NCBI GenBank assembly: GCA_020831525.1
Contig: JAFIGH010000032.1
Location: 1-50,879, forward strand
Direction of reading: 5' to 3'
DNA from: Opitutales bacterium
Lineage (GTDB): Bacteria; Verrucomicrobiota; Verrucomicrobiia; Opitutales; Oceanipulchritudinaceae
Length of the DNA stretch: 50,879 nucleotides
Shown: one piece after another, positions 21,590-33,075 of the stretch
Layout: every line of letters starts with the position of its first letter
Numbering within the stretch: the first letter of the stretch is position 1
The notes under the pieces: generated by a model
Databases searched by the model: none
Seen by the model: only the letters and a program-made list of their open reading frames with translations
What the model was told of the DNA's origin: nothing
Translations under genes and position numbers: made by a program

Positions 21590-22604
21590 AGCGGTCGAGG
21601 TCAAAGGCATGTTCAACGGGTTCACCCGCGCGGAAGCGGTCGATGTTGTCGAGGCAGATGCGGTGAAAGTCACGTAACTCGCCCGCCGCGCCGCGCAAGG
21701 CGGCGTTCCACCCATTGGCGGCGACGGCATGGGCGGTGAGAAGAAGGTTCGGCAACTGGCGGGCGGGGTCGTCCGGCTCGAACCAGTCCTTTCCGCCGGT
21801 GTCGAGGACGTCGAGAGCGGCGCGGAGACGGCCCTGCCGCACTTCGGCGAGGAGGGCGTCCTGGTCGATGATGCCGCCGCGCGCGACGTTCACGACGATG
21901 CCGCCTTCAGGAAGCATGGCGAGGCGGCGGGCATCCACACTGCGCCGTGTCTCGTCGTTTAGCCCGGCGGCGATGACAACGGCGTCGCAACCGGTGAAGA
22001 GTTCGTCGAGGGAACCGGCCCGCCGCATGCCCTCCGGCCAGTCGGCGAGGTAGGGATCGAAGCCCGTTAGCGCGGGGTTCAACGGACGCACAAACTCGAG
22101 AAAAGCTTTCCCGATGACCCCGAGGCCGAAAACGCTGAGACGCAGGCCGTCGACCGAGCCGGACCAGTCGGGCCGCGGCAACCGCCACTCGCCGGACCGC
22201 TTCGCGATGACGTGCTCGGAGAGCTGCTTGAGGCTCCCGAGAAGAAGCGCGAGCGCCCCCTCGGCCACCCGCCGGGCGGGCGCCGGTCCCCAGTTGGAAA
22301 CCGCCATCCCCCGCTCGACCCATGCCCGCGGCACGTAGCTGCGGATCGCGCCGTTGACATGGCAGATGTAGCGCAGGCGGCCCGGATCGGCGGCGAGGGA
22401 CTCGGGCAGCGCGGGGGCGTCCCATGCCGTCACGAGCACGTCCGCGCCGCGCACCGTCTCGGCGATGCGCTCCGCATCCCAGTCGCGGGTATTGTCGAAC
22501 AGGCGGTAGTTGCCCCGGCGTTTCAGCTCCTCCTGAAACACAGGAGTCCACACACCTGCGTGGGGAACCGATTTGTGCAGGCTTAACAATTCAAGGGGAA
22601 TCAT
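21573..22604 (-). CDS. D-2-hydroxyacid dehydrogenase family protein
   Basis: NAD(P)-dependent 2-hydroxyacid dehydrogenase, 343 residues. The nucleotide motif GLGVIGKAFLEFVRPL lies in the middle. It is followed by VNVARGGIIDQDALLAEV with the catalytic Arg (conserved VARG) and a C-terminal TAHAVAANGW with the His. The ATG at 22604 starts the fold. It precedes the isomerase-like gene on the same strand with a 17-base overlap. The 250-base gap to the divergent EamA gene carries a full repeat copy and no obvious promoter. Confidence 0.9.
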   Translation of the reverse strand: MIPLELLSLHKSVPHAGVWTPVFQEELKRRGNYRLFDNTRDWDAERIAETVRGADVLVTAWDAPALPESLAADPGRLRYICHVNGAIRSYVPRAWVERGMAVSNWGPAPARRVAEGALALLLGSLKQLSEHVIAKRSGEWRLPRPDWSGSVDGLRLSVFGLGVIGKAFLEFVRPLNPALTGFDPYLADWPEGMRRAGSLDELFTGCDAVVIAAGLNDETRRSVDARRLAMLPEGGIVVNVARGGIIDQDALLAEVRQGRLRAALDVLDTGGKDWFEPDDPARQLPNLLLTAHAVAANGWNAALRGAAGELRDFHRICLDNIDRFRAGEPVEHAFDLDRYDRST

Positions 22605-22683
22605 GATCTTTTCCCGGATGCTGCACACCAGTTGCCGTAAGGCAAGGCCGCGTACCCGATGGCCTCCGCAAAGCGGCGGGCTT

Positions 22684-22812
22684 ACGTCGCGACGTAGCGA
22701 ATCTCGCCCGGAGATTCGACAGGGCAACCCGCTTGCATCGGCGGCAGGTCCTCAGTTCCCGGGCCAACCCGCTCCGGCACAGGGTCGACGGAGGCGAGGC
22801 TCCGTCGCTACG
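22684..22812. repeat. Dispersed composite hairpin repeat, copy 6 (full-length)
   Basis: Same order as copy 1: TACGTCGCGACGTAG, hairpin B (CGAATCTCGCCCGGAGATTCG), AACCCGCTTGCATCGGCGG, GGGCCAACCCGC, GGGT and hairpin A (22786-22807), CTACG. It lies in the gap between divergent genes and abuts no stop codon. Confidence 0.8.
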
Positions 22813-22854
22813 CTTGCGCACGACAACCGTCTTCGGCAACGTGCGCTCCTTTCG

Positions 22855-23778
22855 ATGGTATTTCTCGTCCTTATTTTCGGCGTCTTCTCCTGCTCGACGT
22901 CGGTCATCTTCATTCGGTGGAGTGAAACGGATCCGGTCATGCTCACGGCCTACCGTCTCATTCTCGGCGGTCTTTTCCTCCTGCCGTTTTACCTGCGCGC
23001 ACGGGAACAGCACCGCTTCCGCATGGACGCCGCCTTTGCGCGCAAGATCGTGCCCCCGGCCCTCTTTCTCGCCCTCCACTTTGTCAGCTGGATCATAGGC
23101 GCGCGTATGACCCCGGCCGCCAACGCCACCCTCATCGTCAACATGGTCCCGGTGGCGATGCCTTTCACGCTTTACTTCCTTCTGCGCGAGAGGCTCACGC
23201 GTCCGGAAGTGGCGGGCACCCTTTTCGCGCTCTCCGGCGTAGTTCTCCTCGGTGTGAGCGACTTCCGCCTCAGCGCGCAGTATGCCCTCGGCGACGCGGT
23301 CTGCTTTGTCTCCATGCTCGTCTACGCCTTATACCTCACGGCGGCCCGCCGCAACCGTGATATCCCCTCCGTCTACCTCTACGTCGTGCCGGTCTATCTC
23401 CTCGCCTCGGTCTTCGCGCTCGGCGGAGCGGCTCTGGCCTTGCCGTTCGGAGCCGTCGACAACGTCATCGGACCCGATATCCACCGCGAGCTGTTCTGCA
23501 TCCTCGCACTGGGGGCGGTGCCGACCGTCCTCGGCCACAGTATTATCAACTGGGCGCTGCGCCACATGCGCGGGCAAACGGTTGCCATCGTCAACCTGCA
23601 CCAGTTCCTCTTCGCGGGCATTCTCGCCTACATTGTCTTCGCCGAGGTGCCCGCGCCGTATTTCTGGGTCGCTTGCCTGCTCGTCATCATAGGTGCCGTT
23701 ATCGTCATACAGCAAAAACCGCCCGGCGAACCATTGCCGCGCCCGCCTCATGAAAACAAAACCGCCGCCCGGCCATAG
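22855..23778 (+). CDS. EamA/DMT-family transporter
   Basis: Inner-membrane exporter of the drug/metabolite superfamily, 307 residues with about ten membrane helices in two EamA halves. Family features: the start MVFLVLIFGVFSCSTSVIFI, WSETDPVMLTAYRLILGG in the first half, and GHSIINWALRHMRGQTVA in the second. The ATG at 22855 is chosen because the in-frame extension reads through the dispersed repeat. The substrate cannot be told. Its 3' end overlaps a hairpin that terminates the convergent cysteine-rich gene. Confidence 0.9.
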   Translation: MVFLVLIFGVFSCSTSVIFIRWSETDPVMLTAYRLILGGLFLLPFYLRAREQHRFRMDAAFARKIVPPALFLALHFVSWIIGARMTPAANATLIVNMVPVAMPFTLYFLLRERLTRPEVAGTLFALSGVVLLGVSDFRLSAQYALGDAVCFVSMLVYALYLTAARRNRDIPSVYLYVVPVYLLASVFALGGAALALPFGAVDNVIGPDIHRELFCILALGAVPTVLGHSIINWALRHMRGQTVAIVNLHQFLFAGILAYIVFAEVPAPYFWVACLLVIIGAVIVIQQKPPGEPLPRPPHENKTAARP

Positions 23779-23792
23779 AGACCGGGAGGCGG
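23753..23792 (-). terminator. Intrinsic terminator of the cysteine-rich protein gene
   Basis: On the minus strand, CCGCCTCCCGG and CCGGGCGGCGG form an 11-position stem with one mismatch, followed by TTTTGTTTTC. It lies about 60 bases past the stop of the cysteine-rich gene and overlaps the end of the EamA gene. Confidence 0.7.
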
Positions 23793-23852
23793 TGGAAAAA
23801 CGTAGATCGCGGACGCTCCGGACGAAACCGGACGGACGATAGTGTGACGGAA

Positions 23853-24590
23853 TCAGCTACCCGCTTGGGCGAGTTCCGCGGCGACTTCACAGCAGGAGGA
23901 TGCTTTGGCTTTCACCTGCGTACCTTCCGCTTTCTTTTTGCAGCAGTCGTCGCCGGCGCAGCAATCTTTGTCGCATTTGCATTCACCGCAGTCGTCACCG
24001 CTGGACACGGCGGCCAGAACGGCTTGCGCCCCGGACCCGGAGGCAGCCACCTCGTCGCCCGCACAGCAGGAAGCCGCGGCTTCCGCGCGGACTTTTTCGG
24101 CCTTGGCCGCGGTGGCGCAGCAGCCGTCGGCTTTCGCGGACGCCATTTCGACCTGGACCGAGCACGCCGTAGCACAGTCTTCCGCCTTGGCGGAGGCAGC
24201 TTGCGCTTTGTCACCGCAAGACGCACCGCAGGACGCACTCTTGGCCGAGGCGAGCACCGCCGAGGCGGAGCAGGCGGATGCCTCCGCTTTTCCGGCAGAA
24301 GCTTTCACGGGAACGGCATCACCCGCGCAGCAACCGCTTGACTTGGCGGAACCCGCTTTTTCAGCGGTCGCGGAGGCGAGAACGGCCGAGGCCGAGCAGG
24401 ACCGGGCGTCGGCTTTGACATCGTGGGCCGATGCGGGACAGGCGGAGACAGCAACAGCCGTTTCCGCTTTACCTGTGGCCGGGAAAAGAGCGGCGGCGCT
24501 GGACGCGCAGCAACCGGACCCTGTGCCGGCAGTGGTGACAACGGCGTAGGCGAGTGCAGCGCCCCCGAAGAGAATAGCGAATGATTTCAT
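23853..24590 (-). CDS. Repetitive cysteine-rich exported protein of unknown function
   Basis: No family recognised. The 245 residues start with a signal peptide-like stretch (MKSFAILFGGAALAYAVV). The remainder is dominated by Ala, Ser, Lys, Glu and Asp with 24 cysteines by hand count, many as CC pairs. Imperfect repeats are visible: ASAVLASA twice, CCAGD three times, and SAKAxxC-type segments. A dense tail (DDCGECKCDKDCCAGDDCC) suggests metal binding. It has its own promoter candidate and terminator. The other frames over this stretch are also open, but only this one has a start, a signal peptide and a regular cysteine pattern. Confidence 0.75.
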   Translation of the reverse strand: MKSFAILFGGAALAYAVVTTAGTGSGCCASSAAALFPATGKAETAVAVSACPASAHDVKADARSCSASAVLASATAEKAGSAKSSGCCAGDAVPVKASAGKAEASACSASAVLASAKSASCGASCGDKAQAASAKAEDCATACSVQVEMASAKADGCCATAAKAEKVRAEAAASCCAGDEVAASGSGAQAVLAAVSSGDDCGECKCDKDCCAGDDCCKKKAEGTQVKAKASSCCEVAAELAQAGS

Positions 24591-24701
24591 GTGCGGTAGG
24601 TGGTGTTTGTGATGATTGTTGTTTGCGAACGGGAGGAGAAGGCGGAAACCACCTGCCCCGAAGGATCAGAAGGACAAGCCGACGTCTTATTCCATGAAGT
24701 A

Positions 24702-24730
24702 ATCATCTTTATTAGATTCCCGCGTGTCAA
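24702..24730 (-). promoter_or_regulatory. Candidate promoter of the cysteine-rich protein gene
   Basis: On the minus strand TTGACA (24730-24725), a 17-base spacer and GATGAT (24707-24702, 4 of 6 matches to the -10 consensus) lie in an AT-richer patch. The predicted leader is about 105 bases. The 24591-24876 gap otherwise holds no gene I can support. Confidence 0.45.
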
Positions 24731-24876
24731 CCACGGATTCTCTTGCAAGCCCCGGTGATTCCCGCTGCAAAGAAACCATTGTGGCCAAAGACGCCTTGAG
24801 CAAATCCAACACCCGGAAAGCCCGCGCTTCCGCCGCGGAGCCGCTGCCCGCGGAAACCCGCGGCGACCTCCCGATC

Positions 24877-25437
24877 ATGCCCATGGCCGGCGATCTCGCG
24901 CGCGTGCTCGTCTCCGAGGAGGAGATCCGGCGGCGGGTGCGCGCCCTCGGGGCACAAATCAGCCGGGACTACGCCGAGGGCGGCAGCCTCACGATTATCG
25001 CGGTGATCAACGGCGCCCTTCTCTTCGTGGCCGACCTGCTGCGCGAGATCACGGTGCCGGTACAGATCGACTGTATGCGCGTCTCCAGCTACCGCAATGA
25101 CATCAACCCTGTGCAGGAACCTGAGATCATCGATATGCTGCGCCTCGATCTGCGCGGGCGCCACGTGCTGATCATCGACGACATCCTCGACACGGGGCAC
25201 ACATTCGAGCGCGTGACAGCGGAGATCCGCAAACTGGGACCGGCCACGCTGCGCTTCGGCGTCCTCCTCGAAAAGCTGGGGCGGCGCGAAGTCCCCGCCC
25301 GGCCGGACTACGTCGGATTTTCCATACCGGACGAATTTGTCGTCGGCTACGGACTCGATTTCGCCGAGCACTACCGCAACCTGCCGTGCATCGGCGTGCT
25401 CCGCGCGGACTGCCAGAACCCTCCCGAATGGGCGTGA
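24877..25437 (+). CDS. hpt: Hypoxanthine phosphoribosyltransferase
   Basis: Purine salvage enzyme converting hypoxanthine or guanine with PRPP to IMP or GMP. The 186 residues show the family N-terminus (VLVSEEEIRRRVRALGAQI), INGALLFVADL, the PRPP-binding loop LIIDDILDTGHT, and GYGLDFAEHYRNLPCIGVL near the C-terminus. In-frame starts at 24724 (GTG) and 24781 (GTG) would add a low-complexity tail foreign to the family, so the ATG at 24877 is preferred without a clear ribosome-binding site. It converges on the acyltransferase-like gene with a 21-base gap. Confidence 0.93.
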   Translation: MPMAGDLARVLVSEEEIRRRVRALGAQISRDYAEGGSLTIIAVINGALLFVADLLREITVPVQIDCMRVSSYRNDINPVQEPEIIDMLRLDLRGRHVLIIDDILDTGHTFERVTAEIRKLGPATLRFGVLLEKLGRREVPARPDYVGFSIPDEFVVGYGLDFAEHYRNLPCIGVLRADCQNPPEWA

Positions 25438-26310: not shown

Positions 26311-27924
26311 TCAAGGCAACTCAAAGGGCCCGACGGTCGCCTCGCCGCGCCGCGACCGCCCGAGAAAATCGGCGCCGGCCTCGTCGATACAGGGCACGCG
26401 GCGCGCAAGCGGACCGTCCGGATGGGGGCGGAAATCGCCGTTGTCCGGATCGATGAAGAGCGGGCCGCGGTGCATTTCCTTCGAGTAAATACTGTGCTCG
26501 TCGAGCCCGGTCATCTCCTGCCATTCGAGGAGACGGTGGCCCCCCGCCATGGGATGCAGCGAGCGACTGTTCCAGTGGAGGTTGTAATCGCTTGTGTTGT
26601 CTGCCGTGAGGGAGGAATGAAAATCGATGCAGAGACTGCCCCCGAGGCAGTCGACGAGCACATTGTTGCGCACGTCGTTCTCCTTCACCGGATAGTCCCC
26701 GTCCGGCGCCATCCAGTCCTCCTGCCGGAACCCGTGCTTGCGCACGAACGCCTCCGGATCGGCGGGATCGTAGGGATGGATGTCACGCTGCCGCACGTGC
26801 CAGCGGAGGTGAACACCGTACCCCGCCGCGCCGTAGACGAGATTGTGGTAGATGCGGGTGCGGCTTGAGAGTTGCACAAGAATGCCGCTGCCCGAGTAGT
26901 TGGATTGCAGGGTATCGACAATGATGTTGTTGCAGACGACATTGTCATAGGAAATCTCGACCATGATCGAGCTGTGCCCGTTGCGGGAAAAGTAGTTTGC
27001 CTCGATGCGGTTGCGGAAATTGTCGATGTCGAGCCACAGCCCGGGCCCGTGCCGGTTGCCGACGAAGCGGTTGTGCCGGAAGACGCAGTCCCGCGAATAC
27101 GCCACTTTGCCGCCGCCGCTCTCCCAGACGTTCCACTCCGCCATGGGATGGTCGCAGAAATTGCGCAGGTCGTTGTCGTGGACGAAGTTCTCCTCGAAGG
27201 CGGAGCGCACCCCGAGGAAGGCGAAGCCCATCTGCCCATTGTGGTGAATCTCGTTGCGCCGGACGCTGAGGTGGCGTCCGCGGAACTTCACGCCCACCCC
27301 GCCCGCGGTCTCGGAGAAACGGCAGTCCTCCACCGTCACATGGTCGCCCCGGATCTCCGACGCCCCGACCTGCACGGAAGCCGCGCAGCGGGTCACGGTG
27401 ATACCGGAGAGCACGACGTGGTCCGCTTCGAGGCGGAGCATGTTGCCGCGTCTGGCCACCTGAACATCACTGTGCACGGGATCCACGCCCGCCTCCAGTT
27501 GCATCCACAGGTCGGTGCCGTCGTAGGCGAATGTGTTCGCCGCGAGGCCGTCAGGCGACTCCACCAACTCTAGACGGCGGCCGTCCACCCAGACCTGTAG
27601 CGGCAGTGTGATGACACCAAAATGTTTCCGCAGACGCTCCTCCGCCTCTATGCGGAACGCCGTGCGGTAGCGGTCAGCGCCCGCGAGCGTCCATGCCGCG
27701 ATCCGGTCGGATCCCGAAAACACAACCGCGCCGTCCCCGGCGGCCTCGATCCGCACGGGATTGCCGGGCTCGCCGCCGCGCTTGATGACAAGCGGCTCGC
27801 GGTAGACCCCCGCAGGAATGCGGACACACGTCCCGGGGCCCGCCGCGGCAAGTACTTCGGAGAAATCCGCCGCCCCGCTCTCCGCCGGCGCGGGCCGGAC
27901 CAATTCTTCAACAACCGTATTCAT
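26311..27924 (-). CDS. Right-handed parallel beta-helix protein (possible polysaccharide lyase)
   Basis: A 537-residue beta-helix protein. The N-terminus (GTCVRIPAGVYREPLVIKRG, GEPGNPVRIEA) matches chondroitinase B/alginate-lyase-like helices. Many coils of the type VVLSGITVTRC, VTVEDCRFSET, LSVRRNEIHHNG and CVFRHNRFVGN follow. No signal peptide is visible, so it may act in the cytoplasm on imported oligosaccharides, or be exported by another route. It follows the MalG-type permease gene by 55 bases on the same strand. Lyase, isomerase or epimerase action are all possible; no catalytic residue can be fixed. Confidence 0.82.
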   Translation of the reverse strand: MNTVVEELVRPAPAESGAADFSEVLAAAGPGTCVRIPAGVYREPLVIKRGGEPGNPVRIEAAGDGAVVFSGSDRIAAWTLAGADRYRTAFRIEAEERLRKHFGVITLPLQVWVDGRRLELVESPDGLAANTFAYDGTDLWMQLEAGVDPVHSDVQVARRGNMLRLEADHVVLSGITVTRCAASVQVGASEIRGDHVTVEDCRFSETAGGVGVKFRGRHLSVRRNEIHHNGQMGFAFLGVRSAFEENFVHDNDLRNFCDHPMAEWNVWESGGGKVAYSRDCVFRHNRFVGNRHGPGLWLDIDNFRNRIEANYFSRNGHSSIMVEISYDNVVCNNIIVDTLQSNYSGSGILVQLSSRTRIYHNLVYGAAGYGVHLRWHVRQRDIHPYDPADPEAFVRKHGFRQEDWMAPDGDYPVKENDVRNNVLVDCLGGSLCIDFHSSLTADNTSDYNLHWNSRSLHPMAGGHRLLEWQEMTGLDEHSIYSKEMHRGPLFIDPDNGDFRPHPDGPLARRVPCIDEAGADFLGRSRRGEATVGPFELP

Positions 27925-27979
27925 ATTCTGTTTAGGTAAATCAACCGGGCAACCAGCCGTAGTGCCGTGCGGCCCACGG

Positions 27980-28819
27980 TCATCCCTTCACGGCTCCGGC
28001 GGCGAGCCCCTTCACGAAGAGCCGCATGGTAAAGAGGAAGAGAACAATAAGGGGAATCGAGGCAATGGCGTAGCCCGCCATCATCTCACCCCATTGCTTC
28101 ACGTATTCCCCTTCCAGATACAGAAGACCCACGGGCACTGTGAACTTCTCTTCATCGCGCATGATGACGAGCGGGAGAATGACGTTGTTCCACACGCCGA
28201 GAAACTTCATAATGGCGACGGTGGAAAGAATGCCGCCCGACATGGGAAGGACGATGTGACGGATCTGCGACAAGTGGCCCGCACCGTCGATCTGGGCGGA
28301 CTCGAACAACTCTTTCGGGATATCCTCGATAAACTGCTTGAGAATGAAAATCCCCACGACCTGCCCGCCGGCGGCACCCACGATAATGAGCGCCCAAAGG
28401 CTGTTGATGAGGTTGAGGTTCTCGAGCAGGGCAAACAGGGTCACGAGCGTCGCCGCCGTGCTCGGCAGAAACATTGAGGCAATGACGGAATAGTACACCA
28501 CGTTGCGGCCCGGAAAACGGTACCGCGCCAACACATAGCTCGTCAGAACCGTCATGATCAGCGAGAAAATGACCGCCGCGACACTTGTGACAATCGAGTT
28601 GGCGATGTAGGTACTCACGATGTTCCACGCCACCGCCCAGTTTTGCCACTGCCATGTGTCGATTGCGTCGAAAAACCATGGGTTGAGCTGGTATTGCTCG
28701 TTCGTCTTGAAGCTCACGACCACCATCACGAACAGCGGATAAAACGCTGTGCCGAGGATGAACCAGAGGTATCCGTGCTTGAGGAACTCCGCCGTCTTGG
28801 ATCTGCGTTTGGTCGACAT
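27980..28819 (-). CDS. Carbohydrate ABC transporter permease, MalG type
   Basis: A 279-residue permease with about six membrane helices. The ATPase-docking loop is ELFESAQIDGAGHLSQIRHI followed by VLPMS, and the C-terminus FVKGLAAGAVKG is the classic MalG ending. The ATG at 28819 is two bases after the stop of the MalF-type gene. No nucleotide-binding subunit is encoded in the operon, so a shared MsmX/UgpC-like ATPase encoded elsewhere is expected. Confidence 0.93.
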   Translation of the reverse strand: MSTKRRSKTAEFLKHGYLWFILGTAFYPLFVMVVVSFKTNEQYQLNPWFFDAIDTWQWQNWAVAWNIVSTYIANSIVTSVAAVIFSLIMTVLTSYVLARYRFPGRNVVYYSVIASMFLPSTAATLVTLFALLENLNLINSLWALIIVGAAGGQVVGIFILKQFIEDIPKELFESAQIDGAGHLSQIRHIVLPMSGGILSTVAIMKFLGVWNNVILPLVIMRDEEKFTVPVGLLYLEGEYVKQWGEMMAGYAIASIPLIVLFLFTMRLFVKGLAAGAVKG

Positions 28820-28821
28820 AC

Positions 28822-30303
28822 TTACTTCTCCACGCGGACGTATTTGTTGTAGATGATCGTCAGACCAAGGACGATGAAGAACAGAACCATACCGAGGGCA
28901 CAGGCATACCCGAAGTGCCCGTCCTCGAAGGCCCGCTTGTACATGTAGAGTCCGGGCACCATGCCCTTGTTGCCGGGACCGCCGTCGGGACCGAGAAGGA
29001 GCAGGAAAAACTCATACGTCGTGAGTGTCCCGATTGTCATGAAAATCAGGTTGATGCGCACCTGCGTCATCATGAGCGGCAACTCAATGCGGAAGAGCAT
29101 TCCGATGGGGCCGACGCCGTCGAGTTCCGCCGCCTCATAGACGTCCTGGGAAATCTGCTGGAGTCCGGAGAGATAAATCAGAACCCCGATCGTCCCGACC
29201 CATGGAAATCCCCAGAATATGATGGCGGGTATGACCAGATCGGTGTTGCCCAGCCAAGCGGGTGAGCCCTCGATGAACTGACCGGTCGGGTGCGTCCAGA
29301 TCATGCCGAAGACAACGAGGAAGGACGCGGCGGTAAGCAGCATCCACGCCGTCCACCGGGCGGACTCGCGCGCCGTGAAATATTCGAGGCGCCGGTAGAG
29401 AACTTCCACAACCGCGACCGCGACCAGCGGCAACGCCGTGATGTAGATCGGCTTGTGAAACGAAACCGCGCAAAGACCCGCGATCCAGATAAACCACAGG
29501 ACCCAGAAGCCTCCCGTGATCACGGCGAGCTTGTAGAGGATGAAAATCGATACACCGAAGGTCACCAGAAATCCGCCGAAGGTGCTGCCCAGACCCGTGA
29601 CAAAGGCGAATGTCCAAACCGCCGGCAGCGCCAGCATCCAGCCCACGGCCCCGCCCCGGCTCTCGTGCGGCGCACCCCGCGAGGCCAGCGTGGCGAGAAT
29701 TGCCCCGAAGAAGAGGAAGCTCCAGATGCCTCCGAAGAGCGGGTTGATAACCATCCCGAAGACCGGCTGCAGCGCCTCGGAGATGCGCGGCATGACCCCC
29801 GGCGCGTCGTGGGTACCGTCCATCCAGGTGAGCAAGGTCATCATGCCCGTGGCATTGAGAAAGCGGTTGAGGATACCAAAATCGGGATCGTAGAAACTCT
29901 TCCAGATGAGCAGCCAGACAAGGCCGGGTACGACCATGGGCACGACGAAGAGAACCTGGTAGATGTAGCGGTGCGTCTGGTTGGCGACCCGGTGCAGGGC
30001 GACGGCGGCGAAGATGGCCGGCCACATCTTCAGCAAGTTCGTGACGAGGAGGATGAGAATGAGCTGGAAGGACTGCCAGAAGAGCGGATCCGCCGCCGCG
30101 TCCATGAAGTTCCCCAGCCCGATGTACTCCATGACGGTGGGCGGCTCCCACCGGAAGAACGACATCACGATGACGTCGATCTTCGGGTAGTAGTCAAAGA
30201 CGATCATGCCCGCGATGGTCGGGAGCATGAGGAAATAAAGGACGACCCAGAGGCGGCCCTTCTGCGCGAGAATGCGGAGGTGTTTCGCGAGGTAGTCGAC
30301 CAT
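28822..30303 (-). CDS. Enlarged carbohydrate ABC transporter permease, MalF type
   Basis: The usual MalF-like permease is near 300 residues; this one has 493. Residues 1-150 (with VVPMVVPGLVWLLIWKSFYD and GILNRFLN) and 348-493 (PAIIFWGFPW, the docking loop DVYEAAELDGVGPIGMLF, and the end MVLFFIVLGLTIIYNKYV) are a normal permease. Between them lies an extra block of almost 200 residues with five or so hydrophobic helices, beginning near GGIWSFLFFGAILATLASRG and ending near MIWTHPTG. No stop or frameshift is involved. The ATG at 30303 lies two bases after the binding-protein stop. Confidence 0.88.
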   Translation of the reverse strand: MVDYLAKHLRILAQKGRLWVVLYFLMLPTIAGMIVFDYYPKIDVIVMSFFRWEPPTVMEYIGLGNFMDAAADPLFWQSFQLILILLVTNLLKMWPAIFAAVALHRVANQTHRYIYQVLFVVPMVVPGLVWLLIWKSFYDPDFGILNRFLNATGMMTLLTWMDGTHDAPGVMPRISEALQPVFGMVINPLFGGIWSFLFFGAILATLASRGAPHESRGGAVGWMLALPAVWTFAFVTGLGSTFGGFLVTFGVSIFILYKLAVITGGFWVLWFIWIAGLCAVSFHKPIYITALPLVAVAVVEVLYRRLEYFTARESARWTAWMLLTAASFLVVFGMIWTHPTGQFIEGSPAWLGNTDLVIPAIIFWGFPWVGTIGVLIYLSGLQQISQDVYEAAELDGVGPIGMLFRIELPLMMTQVRINLIFMTIGTLTTYEFFLLLLGPDGGPGNKGMVPGLYMYKRAFEDGHFGYACALGMVLFFIVLGLTIIYNKYVRVEK

Positions 30304-30305
30304 CT

Positions 30306-32150
30306 CTAGAATTCCGGTTCCGGTTCCCCGGGGAAGAAGCGGTGCCACATCATGCGGTTGTTGAGGCCGTTGGAGAGTGTGAGGGAGCGCTGGAGGATTT
30401 GGAAATACCGCTCCTCGGCGTCGGGATCGATCCCCGAGAGGTAGCGGATTGCCTGCGTGCTCAGGGTCATCTGCGTGTTACGGTCGACCTGCCGGTCGCG
30501 CTGGAATTGCTCCGCCCAGAGGCGGTTGACGCCCATGCGCCTGTCGCCCATCGCCGCTTCCACGTTGGCGACAAATTCTTCGTAGGTGATGTCGCCGCCG
30601 ATATACAGATACAGCTGGCCGCGATAAACCGTCGCGACATTGCCGCCGAGGAAACGCAGGTGCAGCGATCCGATGATTCCCGCCGTTTCGGGCATGAACG
30701 GGCGCATCTCACGGGTCGGTTCGACGCCAATGGTGGCAGGCAGCCATCCCGAATGATCAACAAACATCTGGTTTCCCTTGTAGCTGGTGAGGTAGCGGAG
30801 AAAGTCGATGGCTTCGTCCTTCATGGAAGACAGCTTGTAGAGCGCCATGGGAACGCCGAGGGTCTGCCCCGCCTCGCTAGGCGGTTGGTTGGCAAAGCCG
30901 TGGAACCGTTCGCCCGGCCCCGGCACGGGCAAAAGGGCGACCCCCACTTCAAAGGGATCGGCCTGCTCGCGGGCCAGCTTGAAGATGCCCGAGGCGTCCC
31001 AGCCACCGGTAAGGAGCATGGCGGCGTTCTGCATGATGAAGCGCCGGTTGGCCTGCTCGCGGTCGAGCCCGAGAAATCCGCGCGGAAAGTGGGTCGCGAT
31101 CTCGCGCAGGGTCTTGAAGTAGGCACGCACTTCCTCGTCCTCGAACCGCCACTTATCCGCCGACCACGCGCCGAAGGTCTCGAGAGCACTGATGTTCGAA
31201 TCATGGTCGAGGTCGAACTCCGAGACGAGCCCGTGGTGGAAGGTCGGCGCGTAGCGGTCGGCGAACAGGTCGCGAGTGTAGCTGCTGCCGGAAATCGGAA
31301 CGAGAAAGGGAAGGTTCTGGCGGCGCGCAAGCTCCCAGACCGCGTCAGACACAAGGAGCAGGCGCCCCAGCGTATCGACAGAACGGTCGCTCCTGAGCCA
31401 TTCCCGCAGCTCCGGGGTGTCCGGCAGCCACCCGTCGTCCGTCGTGCCCCCCGGCGGGATAAGCCGCGCTTCCAGCCATGCGGGGCGGACCTCCGACTCA
31501 AGGGCTTCGAGAACAATGGCTTTCGCCTGTTTCATGTAGCCGCGGTTGTAATACAGCCGGATCGACCCCCAGTTGGAAACGGGTATGGCGTAGTAGTTTT
31601 TCAGTTGATCGTTGTAGCCGCTCTGCAGTCCGTCCGCAAATGTGTCGCGCCACGGCCCCTCGATCAATGCCCGCCGGATCTCCGCGAGGAGGTGATCCGG
31701 AACCGTCTCCTCCGTGTTGTAATGATTGGGCTCGTCAACGATGGCGGCAAGCGGCTCGTAAAACTGGTCCACCTGCGAGGCGAGACTCGCCTTGCCCATC
31801 GTGCTGAGGTCCGGGGCGGTGCCGCTGATGAGGTGCGTGTTGAGGAACTGGCTGTAAAACTTCTCCGAGATCGCAACCTGCTGGACACGGTATCCCGCCT
31901 CGCGCACATGCGGCAGGGCGTTATACTCGGCGATGACCTTATCCAGCGCCTCGCGGAAGCCGGGCTCCAATTGCCAGTGCAGAAAGCGCACCACGCGCTC
32001 CTCCCGTCCGGTGAAGCGGTCGAGTGTACCCGTCTGCACCATGACAATCCAAATACTGATAATAAAGCTGCCGAAGAGGATGACAGCTCCGAACAAATTC
32101 GCATTGAGCCACGCGGGCTTCATGGAGGGACTGGATTCGGATTCACTCAT
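30306..32150 (-). CDS. Membrane-anchored extracellular solute-binding protein of a sugar ABC transporter
   Basis: Receptor of the sugar importer, 614 residues, longer than most family 1 binding proteins. It has an uncleaved N-terminal helix (LFGAVILFGSFIISIWIVMV, about residues 17-36) instead of a lipobox. After the helix the fold starts VVRFLHWQLEPGFREALDKV, as in sugar-binding proteins, followed by GTAPDLSTMG and YAIPVSNWGSIRLYYNRGYM. The ATG at 32150 overlaps the end of the TPR lipoprotein gene by eight bases; longer in-frame readings run back through that gene in the wrong frame. The substrate is unknown; the beta-helix gene suggests an oligosaccharide. Confidence 0.87.
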   Translation of the reverse strand: MSESESSPSMKPAWLNANLFGAVILFGSFIISIWIVMVQTGTLDRFTGREERVVRFLHWQLEPGFREALDKVIAEYNALPHVREAGYRVQQVAISEKFYSQFLNTHLISGTAPDLSTMGKASLASQVDQFYEPLAAIVDEPNHYNTEETVPDHLLAEIRRALIEGPWRDTFADGLQSGYNDQLKNYYAIPVSNWGSIRLYYNRGYMKQAKAIVLEALESEVRPAWLEARLIPPGGTTDDGWLPDTPELREWLRSDRSVDTLGRLLLVSDAVWELARRQNLPFLVPISGSSYTRDLFADRYAPTFHHGLVSEFDLDHDSNISALETFGAWSADKWRFEDEEVRAYFKTLREIATHFPRGFLGLDREQANRRFIMQNAAMLLTGGWDASGIFKLAREQADPFEVGVALLPVPGPGERFHGFANQPPSEAGQTLGVPMALYKLSSMKDEAIDFLRYLTSYKGNQMFVDHSGWLPATIGVEPTREMRPFMPETAGIIGSLHLRFLGGNVATVYRGQLYLYIGGDITYEEFVANVEAAMGDRRMGVNRLWAEQFQRDRQVDRNTQMTLSTQAIRYLSGIDPDAEERYFQILQRSLTLSNGLNNRMMWHRFFPGEPEPEF

Positions 32151-33075
32151 CGGCAATTTCATGCGGCAGGAGGGTGCGTTTGATTTCCGGGAGTTCGTCG
32201 GGGAACTGCTCGCGCAAACGCGCGTAGGCCGCGAGAGACTCGTGAACGCGCGGGCTGCGCGGCGTCTCCTCGACGATCTTCGCGTAGTAGACCGCCGCCC
32301 CGAGAGGGTCATCAAGGTAGCGCTCGGCCATCCATGCCATGCGCCAGTAGGTGTGCCATGCCCGCGCGCGTTCGACCAAACCCAGCGCGATGGCACGCTC
32401 AAAAGACGCAAACGCCTTCTCCGCGTCTTCGAGATAATGCCAATACTTGTCGCCCAGAAAATACCAGAGGATGTTGGCAATGGGCGAATCCGTGCGGCGC
32501 TCCAAATACCGCTCCAGCCGCTCCAAACCCTCCCGCACCGCCTCCGGATCGCGGTAATCATGGAGAGCGCTGGCGGCGAACCGTCCCGCCGCCTCGTCCG
32601 CGAAAATCGTGTTTTCCCACTCCTCCATCACCCGCGTGTAGTAGCCGCGCGCGGTGTTCACGTCCTCCGTATCGCCCGGAAAATTCACTTGTTCGTGCAT
32701 GCGCCCGAGGCTGAGAAGCGCCCGGGGCAGGTAGGGCGAGTCGGTTGTCAATCGTTTGACAAGCTCTTCGAAGAGCGTCCGCGCCTCGACAATGGAAGCA
32801 CGGTTGGGCGGCAGGCGGTGCCACCCGGAGGTCGCCGCCCCGAATGTTGCCTCCACCCATTGATCACTCCCTACCTCCGCTATTGCGCGGGACCCGCTGT
32901 AAAGCTCATACGCACGATTGTAATTGAATACCGACGCTTCCATGTGCGCCTCGCGCAGCAGCGCTTCCGAACGCTCCGTGTCCACGACGCGGTCCCGGGC
33001 GCAACCTGTGAGCACAACCCAACAGAGCGCCGCCGCGGCGAATAGACGGATGAAGTTGTCGGTCCTGGGAGTCAT
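32143..33075 (-). CDS. TPR-repeat lipoprotein heading the sugar-transporter operon
   Basis: A 310-residue exported lipoprotein with lipobox VLTGC at about residues 21-25, then helical repeats of TPR type: for example NYNRAYELYSGSRAIAE, EDAEKAFASFERAIAL and DDPLGAAVYYAKIVEE. It is the first gene of the six-gene run, overlapping the solute-binding protein gene by eight bases, which suggests a structural role beside the receptor at the membrane. The ATG at 33075 precedes a proper signal peptide. The function itself is unknown. Confidence 0.83.
   Translation of the reverse strand: MTPRTDNFIRLFAAAALCWVVLTGCARDRVVDTERSEALLREAHMEASVFNYNRAYELYSGSRAIAEVGSDQWVEATFGAATSGWHRLPPNRASIVEARTLFEELVKRLTTDSPYLPRALLSLGRMHEQVNFPGDTEDVNTARGYYTRVMEEWENTIFADEAAGRFAASALHDYRDPEAVREGLERLERYLERRTDSPIANILWYFLGDKYWHYLEDAEKAFASFERAIALGLVERARAWHTYWRMAWMAERYLDDPLGAAVYYAKIVEETPRSPRVHESLAAYARLREQFPDELPEIKRTLLPHEIADE

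Follow-up and report, generated by a model that had tools for sequence, protein, structure and literature searches.

A putative exported cysteine-rich repeat protein from Opitutales and its narrow distribution, with a proposed role in soft-metal binding

The locus and its coding frame

The window analysed here, a stretch of 50,879 nucleotides from an Opitutales bacterium (contig JAFIGH010000032.1), encodes a cysteine-rich protein of 245 amino acids, referred to below as P0001, whose open reading frame begins with an ATG at 24590 and ends with a stop at 23853 on the minus strand (Table 1). Its composition is dominated by alanine (72 residues), serine (32), glycine (21) and lysine (20), while histidine and methionine are nearly missing. 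The 24 cysteines are held within the ∼224 residues of the predicted mature chain, and 14 of them sit in seven CC pairs; composition would predict 2.3 ± 1.4, and as many as seven arise in 7 of 2000 shuffles. The Sec-signal-like N-terminus (MKSFAILFGG...) carries no twin arginine and leads into an xxA-G junction common to all four homologues (4/4) described below; a lipoprotein reading was dropped, as the GSGC preceding the first cysteine is without the usual lipobox leucine. At the other end of the chain, the cysteines form a compact cluster with the pattern C-x2-C-x-C-x3-CC-x4-CC. An earlier sequence-only reading of this DNA had described the same length, cysteine count and signal-peptide-like start, all of which match the open reading frame.

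Table 1. Features at the P0001 locus and the DsbD gene of the same genome (window positions unless a locus is named).
Feature	Position	Strand	Basis
Coding sequence of the predicted exported Cys-rich repeat protein P0001 (245 aa)	23853..24590	minus	Open reading frame; orthologues and purifying selection
N-terminal Sec-signal-like segment, residues 1-21 (MKSFAILFGGAALAYAVVTTA, followed by G)	24528..24590	minus	Sequence, alignment, hydropathy; cleavage site placed by eye
18-residue Cys ladder, residues 107-176	24063..24272	minus	Cys 107, 121, 125, 139, 143, 157, 158, 175, 176; ASAK at 114, 132, 150
C-terminal Cys cluster, residues 201-217 (CGECKCDKDCCAGDDCC)	23940..23990	minus	Cys invariant in three same-genus proteins
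Sigma-70-like promoter, TTGACA-17-GATGAT	24702..24730	minus	10/12 matches, 0.2 expected
GC-rich hairpin and T tract, probable bidirectional terminator between the P0001 and EamA genes	23761..23793	minus	Folding energy
Phosphoribosyltransferase (Pribosyltran, PF00156), divergent neighbour	24724..25437	plus	Pfam domain
EamA-family transporter, convergent neighbour	22573..23778	plus	
DsbD	L106:910-3075	minus	Pfam

A related-locus search recovered full-length orthologues of P0001 in two Opitutales MAGs of the same genus, CSSed162cmA_196 and CSSed165cm_301R1 (genomes G001 and G002; loci L001 and L002), with 79 and 82% identity over the protein. In all three genomes the gene lies between the EamA gene and the divergent phosphoribosyltransferase gene. 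The dN/dS ratios are 0.15-0.23 (NG86, three pairwise comparisons among the window, L001 and L002), and differences at codon positions 1/2/3 of the P0001 frame number 36/24/95 between the window and L001 and 25/23/91 between the window and L002; because they concentrate at the third position, the minus-strand P0001 frame is the coding one. Cysteine columns are invariant across the three proteins in 22 of 24 cases, above the other residues (Fisher P = 0.01), and the sole loss is that of the CC at 157-158 in L002. Judged from these comparisons, P0001 is a genuine gene under purifying selection. Long open reading frames do overlap it in other frames, as a spurious frame in GC-rich DNA would have it, but the codon-position pattern refutes that reading, and with orthologues at hand, low dN/dS, a third-position bias in this very frame and cysteines that are kept, we give it practically no credence. 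The sequence-only reading had likewise taken this for what is probably a real, independently expressed gene, to be doubted if orthologues were lacking, cysteines unconserved or another frame conserved; the orthologues, the invariant columns and the conservation of the P0001 frame speak for it, together with the candidate transcription signals on either side.

Of these signals, which had also been proposed earlier and stand up to comparison, the promoter-like site is placed ∼110 nt upstream of the ATG, and its TTGACA −35 block and surrounding bases are conserved in both L001 and L002. The hairpin downstream of the gene is followed by TTTTGTT (MFE −41.2 kcal/mol over a 98-nt stretch, z −3.9), a similar hairpin is found 3' of the gene in L001 and L002, and, since it is placed between two convergent genes, it probably terminates both. 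The stretch directly ahead of the ATG (24590-24610; ACCACCTACCGCACATG) contains no Shine-Dalgarno-like sequence and is nearly identical in the two same-genus relatives. On the other side, the listed start of the phosphoribosyltransferase frame extends into the promoter region of the P0001 gene (24724-24870); since in homologues from other genera the similarity begins only at about residue 50, translation probably starts near 24870 instead. Neither a metal-transport or metal-sensor gene nor a redox gene adjoins P0001, and no Rfam match was found at the locus. Further along the window (26311-32561), a right-handed β-helix/NosD-like protein (PF13229, PF05048) is encoded beside genes for two ABC permeases and a solute-binding protein.

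A diverged relative and its 18-residue unit

As the phosphoribosyltransferase gene is conserved in the bacterial family, it was used as a landmark beside which Cys-rich open reading frames were sought in 16 family genomes. In a genome of another genus (G006), this located a protein of 264 residues with 28 cysteines and 11 CC pairs (L012:2246-3037), in the same divergent position as P0001. A profile built from the three same-genus sequences does not recover L012, even at E 1; the pair nevertheless aligns over the whole length with 40% identity in the multiple alignment, has a BLASTP E of 6e-6, and reaches a local score of 275, a value that none of 500 composition-preserving shuffles attains (142 ± 13). 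Both proteins have a signal-like N-terminus, the xxA-G junction, a GAQAVLA motif and a Cys-rich C-terminus.

The middle of L012 is an exact 18-residue repeat, CCxxxAVLASxPAVxxx, with a CC every 18 residues. Four of its units agree at 11-13 of 18 residues, and their codon differences fall 28/22/78 on positions 1/2/3 (53 synonymous vs 36 non-synonymous); because the protein sequence was kept at this level while third positions diverged, the unit is, on this reading of the codons, maintained by selection and not the product of a recent duplication. By comparison of the two sequences, L012 shows the building plan of P0001, which retains the 18-residue ladder in decayed form. The imperfect repeats described in the sequence-only reading are thus present in P0001 but faint, the unit becoming clear only by way of L012, and its expectation of orthologues with constant CC spacing but variable repeat number finds a counterpart in kind in L012, where the CC repeats are more numerous and more regular.

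In P0001, steps of 18 residues connect Cys 107/125/143, Cys 121/139/157 and the pairs 157-158/175-176, as well as the ASAK motifs at 114/132/150. Over the whole protein, seven pairs of cysteines lie exactly 18 residues apart, against 2.6 in gap shuffles, with P = 0.005 when the period is preset by L012 and P = 0.13 if any period is allowed. Eighteen residues equal five helix turns, and the ladder cysteines form i,i+4 pairs; if residues 107-176 were helical, all nine of their cysteines would lie near one face (R = 0.79; P = 0.0016 for random placement, 0.010 for gap shuffles). Such clustering is missing over the whole mature protein (R = 0.25, P = 0.19) and is weaker in L012 (R = 0.49; P = 0.011 for random placement, 0.001 for gap shuffles). 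Because several angles are in resonance with any period of 18 residues, the one-face arrangement is no proof of a helix, and it is an argument of geometry only, since the AlphaFold models are uninformative (pLDDT 34.6 for P0001 and 35.7 for L012, too low for fold searches).

Distribution and comparison with known Cys-rich proteins

P0001 has no match in Pfam, NCBIfam or PHROGs at E≤1, nor in the PDB by profile search at E≤1, and no relative was found among plasmids and phages by tblastn or in IMG/VR scans, in agreement with the sequence-only reading, which had recognised no family. The sole single-sequence PDB match, a sugar kinase at E 0.75, is not significant. When a four-protein profile was run against 384 genomes of the class, only two genera, that of P0001 and that of G006, proved to carry the family. 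Other class-wide matches at E 0.002-0.05 were dropped, as the overlapping open reading frames are Cys-poor or without CC repeats, and so was a low-scoring match in the genome of P0001 itself (L006; own-genome matches at E 0.14 and 0.18), which falls in an ATPase-like frame and not in a Cys-rich protein. Likewise, among 372 genomes of the order, G006 alone has the pattern CCxxxAVLA in an array of five, with scattered single or paired matches elsewhere, and the pattern CC-16-CC-16-CC, searched in 387 genomes of the phylum, mostly hits CTG-type repeats; among the matches read, only that in G006 is of the P0001 kind, besides an unrelated-looking protein at L102. The genomes compared are draft assemblies, and other family genomes have different genes upstream of the phosphoribosyltransferase. 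L012 escaped the first profile, and other distant relatives may likewise have gone undetected. Taken at this scope, P0001 and its relatives appear to constitute a new, narrowly distributed family of predicted exported Cys-rich proteins, for which we propose a mechanism below. The sample names of the relatives are, we take it, of soda-lake style, and by that token the window probably belongs to T3Sed10-336 (GTDB), an Opitutales family from soda lakes described in 2026 (PMC13274419).

The L102 protein (L102:200-478, G869:C104), from a distant genome of the phylum, is a lipoprotein-like Cys/Lys protein of 92 residues without a Pfam family. It is comparable to P0001 in its lipoprotein-like start and in 18-residue repeats (KKCGANCTKPCCAKKAVV) with CxxxC followed by CC, although the 18-residue CC step was itself the search pattern and only the CxxxC spacing is independent, and it differs in its Lys-rich composition, its length and the lack of an Ala/AVLAS core. 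It seems to belong to a small Cys-rich repeat family of its own, built on a similar Cys ladder.

Among known systems, three invite comparison. Cysteine pairs in CxxxC (i,i+4) spacing are a feature of copper storage proteins, and P0001 resembles the Csp1 type in its predicted export, in its many cysteines per chain and in i,i+4 cysteines on one putative helix face. Csp1 is a periplasmic four-helix bundle with a Tat signal that binds Cu(I) through inward-facing cysteines (PMC7558416), whereas P0001 has no Tat twin arginine, carries mostly CC pairs at an 18-residue period, and is longer, Ala-rich and poor in Met and His. With neither a twin arginine nor Csp homology in Pfam/NCBIfam (E≤1) or by PDB profile search (E≤1), P0001 is, by sequence, not a Csp. 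Bacterial metallothioneins (SmtA/BmtA, MymT) have a similarly high cysteine content, and the C-terminal cluster of P0001 resembles a thiolate cluster; its export-like N-terminus, its several times greater length, its repeat-built architecture and the lack of a metallothionein match in Pfam/NCBIfam nevertheless indicate that it is not a known metallothionein. By analogy, it may still work like either of them. The chlamydial OmcA and OmcB are exported Cys-rich proteins of the same superphylum, with an OmcB homologue reported in Rhodopirellula (PMC1403754), but P0001 matches no Omc family in Pfam and is on these grounds not an Omc-type protein, and in its genome the standard enzyme families of disulfide formation find no match.

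Thiol chemistry and proposed function

Extracytoplasmic disulfide enzymes were searched for in eight family genomes, that of P0001 and seven others (G000, G001, G002, G003, G004, G006, G007 and G012). None of the eight matches the Pfam models for DSBA (PF01323), DsbB (PF02600) or VKOR (PF07884), each of which matches several of 14 control genomes, while DsbD_TM (PF02683) is matched in all eight; the DsbD of the P0001 genome carries DsbD_N, DsbD_TM and a thioredoxin domain. The family thus appears to be without the usual disulfide-forming pathway, as far as three Pfam models in eight genomes can tell, with DsbA-like proteins outside PF01323 (e.g., PF13462) lying outside the search.

We propose that P0001 is a periplasmic soft-metal thiol sponge, a reading on which we are evenly divided. 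The protein would be transcribed on its own and exported via Sec to the periplasm or envelope with cleavage of its signal, its cysteines would stay reduced outside the cytoplasm, and the 18-residue ladder and the metallothionein-like C-terminal cluster would chelate soft metal ions, most likely Cu(I), with Zn, Cd, Ag, As(III) and Hg as possible ligands, so that the bound metal would be stored or detoxified. In its favour we count the density of cysteines in the mature chain, their near-complete invariance, the L012 repeat, the one-face geometry and the presence of DsbD without oxidase matches; against it, the lack of an adjoining metal gene and of metallothionein or Csp homology, the uninformative AlphaFold models, the scarcity of His and Met, and the DsbA-like proteins outside PF01323 that the search did not cover. 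Since the gene is missing from most of the family, such a function would answer no general need.

The enzyme complement also bears on the alternatives. The sequence-only reading had offered metal binding or a disulfide-rich envelope material, and because no DSBA, DsbB or VKOR match accompanies DsbD in the eight genomes, reduced, metal-binding thiols are favoured over the latter. Exported subunits that cross-link by oxidation into a sleeve or layer rich in cystine, with a function like that of OmcA/OmcB, would suit the export-like N-terminus, the low complexity, the many CC pairs and the 18-residue repeats, and Cys-rich envelope proteins of the OmcB type are found in the same superphylum (PMC1403754); yet a chain that depends on as many as 12 disulfides would be poorly placed in a periplasm that has a thiol-reducing system but no match to a standard oxidase, and, with no Omc family match either, we consider this unlikely. 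A reduced-thiol setting would equally suit a periplasmic redox buffer or sulfur-species scavenger, whose sacrificial thiols would meet oxidants, polysulfide or nitric oxide and not metal, and the sediment sample names of two named relatives fit this; the regular CC and CxxxC geometry, however, exceeds the need of a thiol pool, and with no redox gene adjoining we find this distinctly unlikely. Very unlikely, to our mind, is a metal-free repetitive surface or secreted structural protein, a solenoid of 18 residues per turn with the cysteines as core ladder residues: the exact repeat in L012 and a unit whose length fits one turn of a solenoid or five of a helix would agree with it, but the units are without the Gly/Asn/Asp turn residues usual in β-solenoids, and the AlphaFold models, at a confidence that makes them worthless here, show no solenoid.

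The thiol sponge could also be framed more broadly. P0001 would then represent a new class, thiol-ladder proteins that are exported and share no ancestry with Csp or metallothioneins, and their 18-residue CC/CxxxC repeat would form a one-dimensional metal-thiolate array in haloalkaliphilic Verrucomicrobiota with a reducing periplasm; this we regard as doubtful. If metal is bound, the few thiol storage proteins of bacteria would be joined by a periplasmic, repeat-built metal sponge, whose 18-residue unit is simple enough to be synthesised and tested. More generally, the family raises the question of what role exported Cys-rich proteins play in bacteria without the usual disulfide-enzyme matches.
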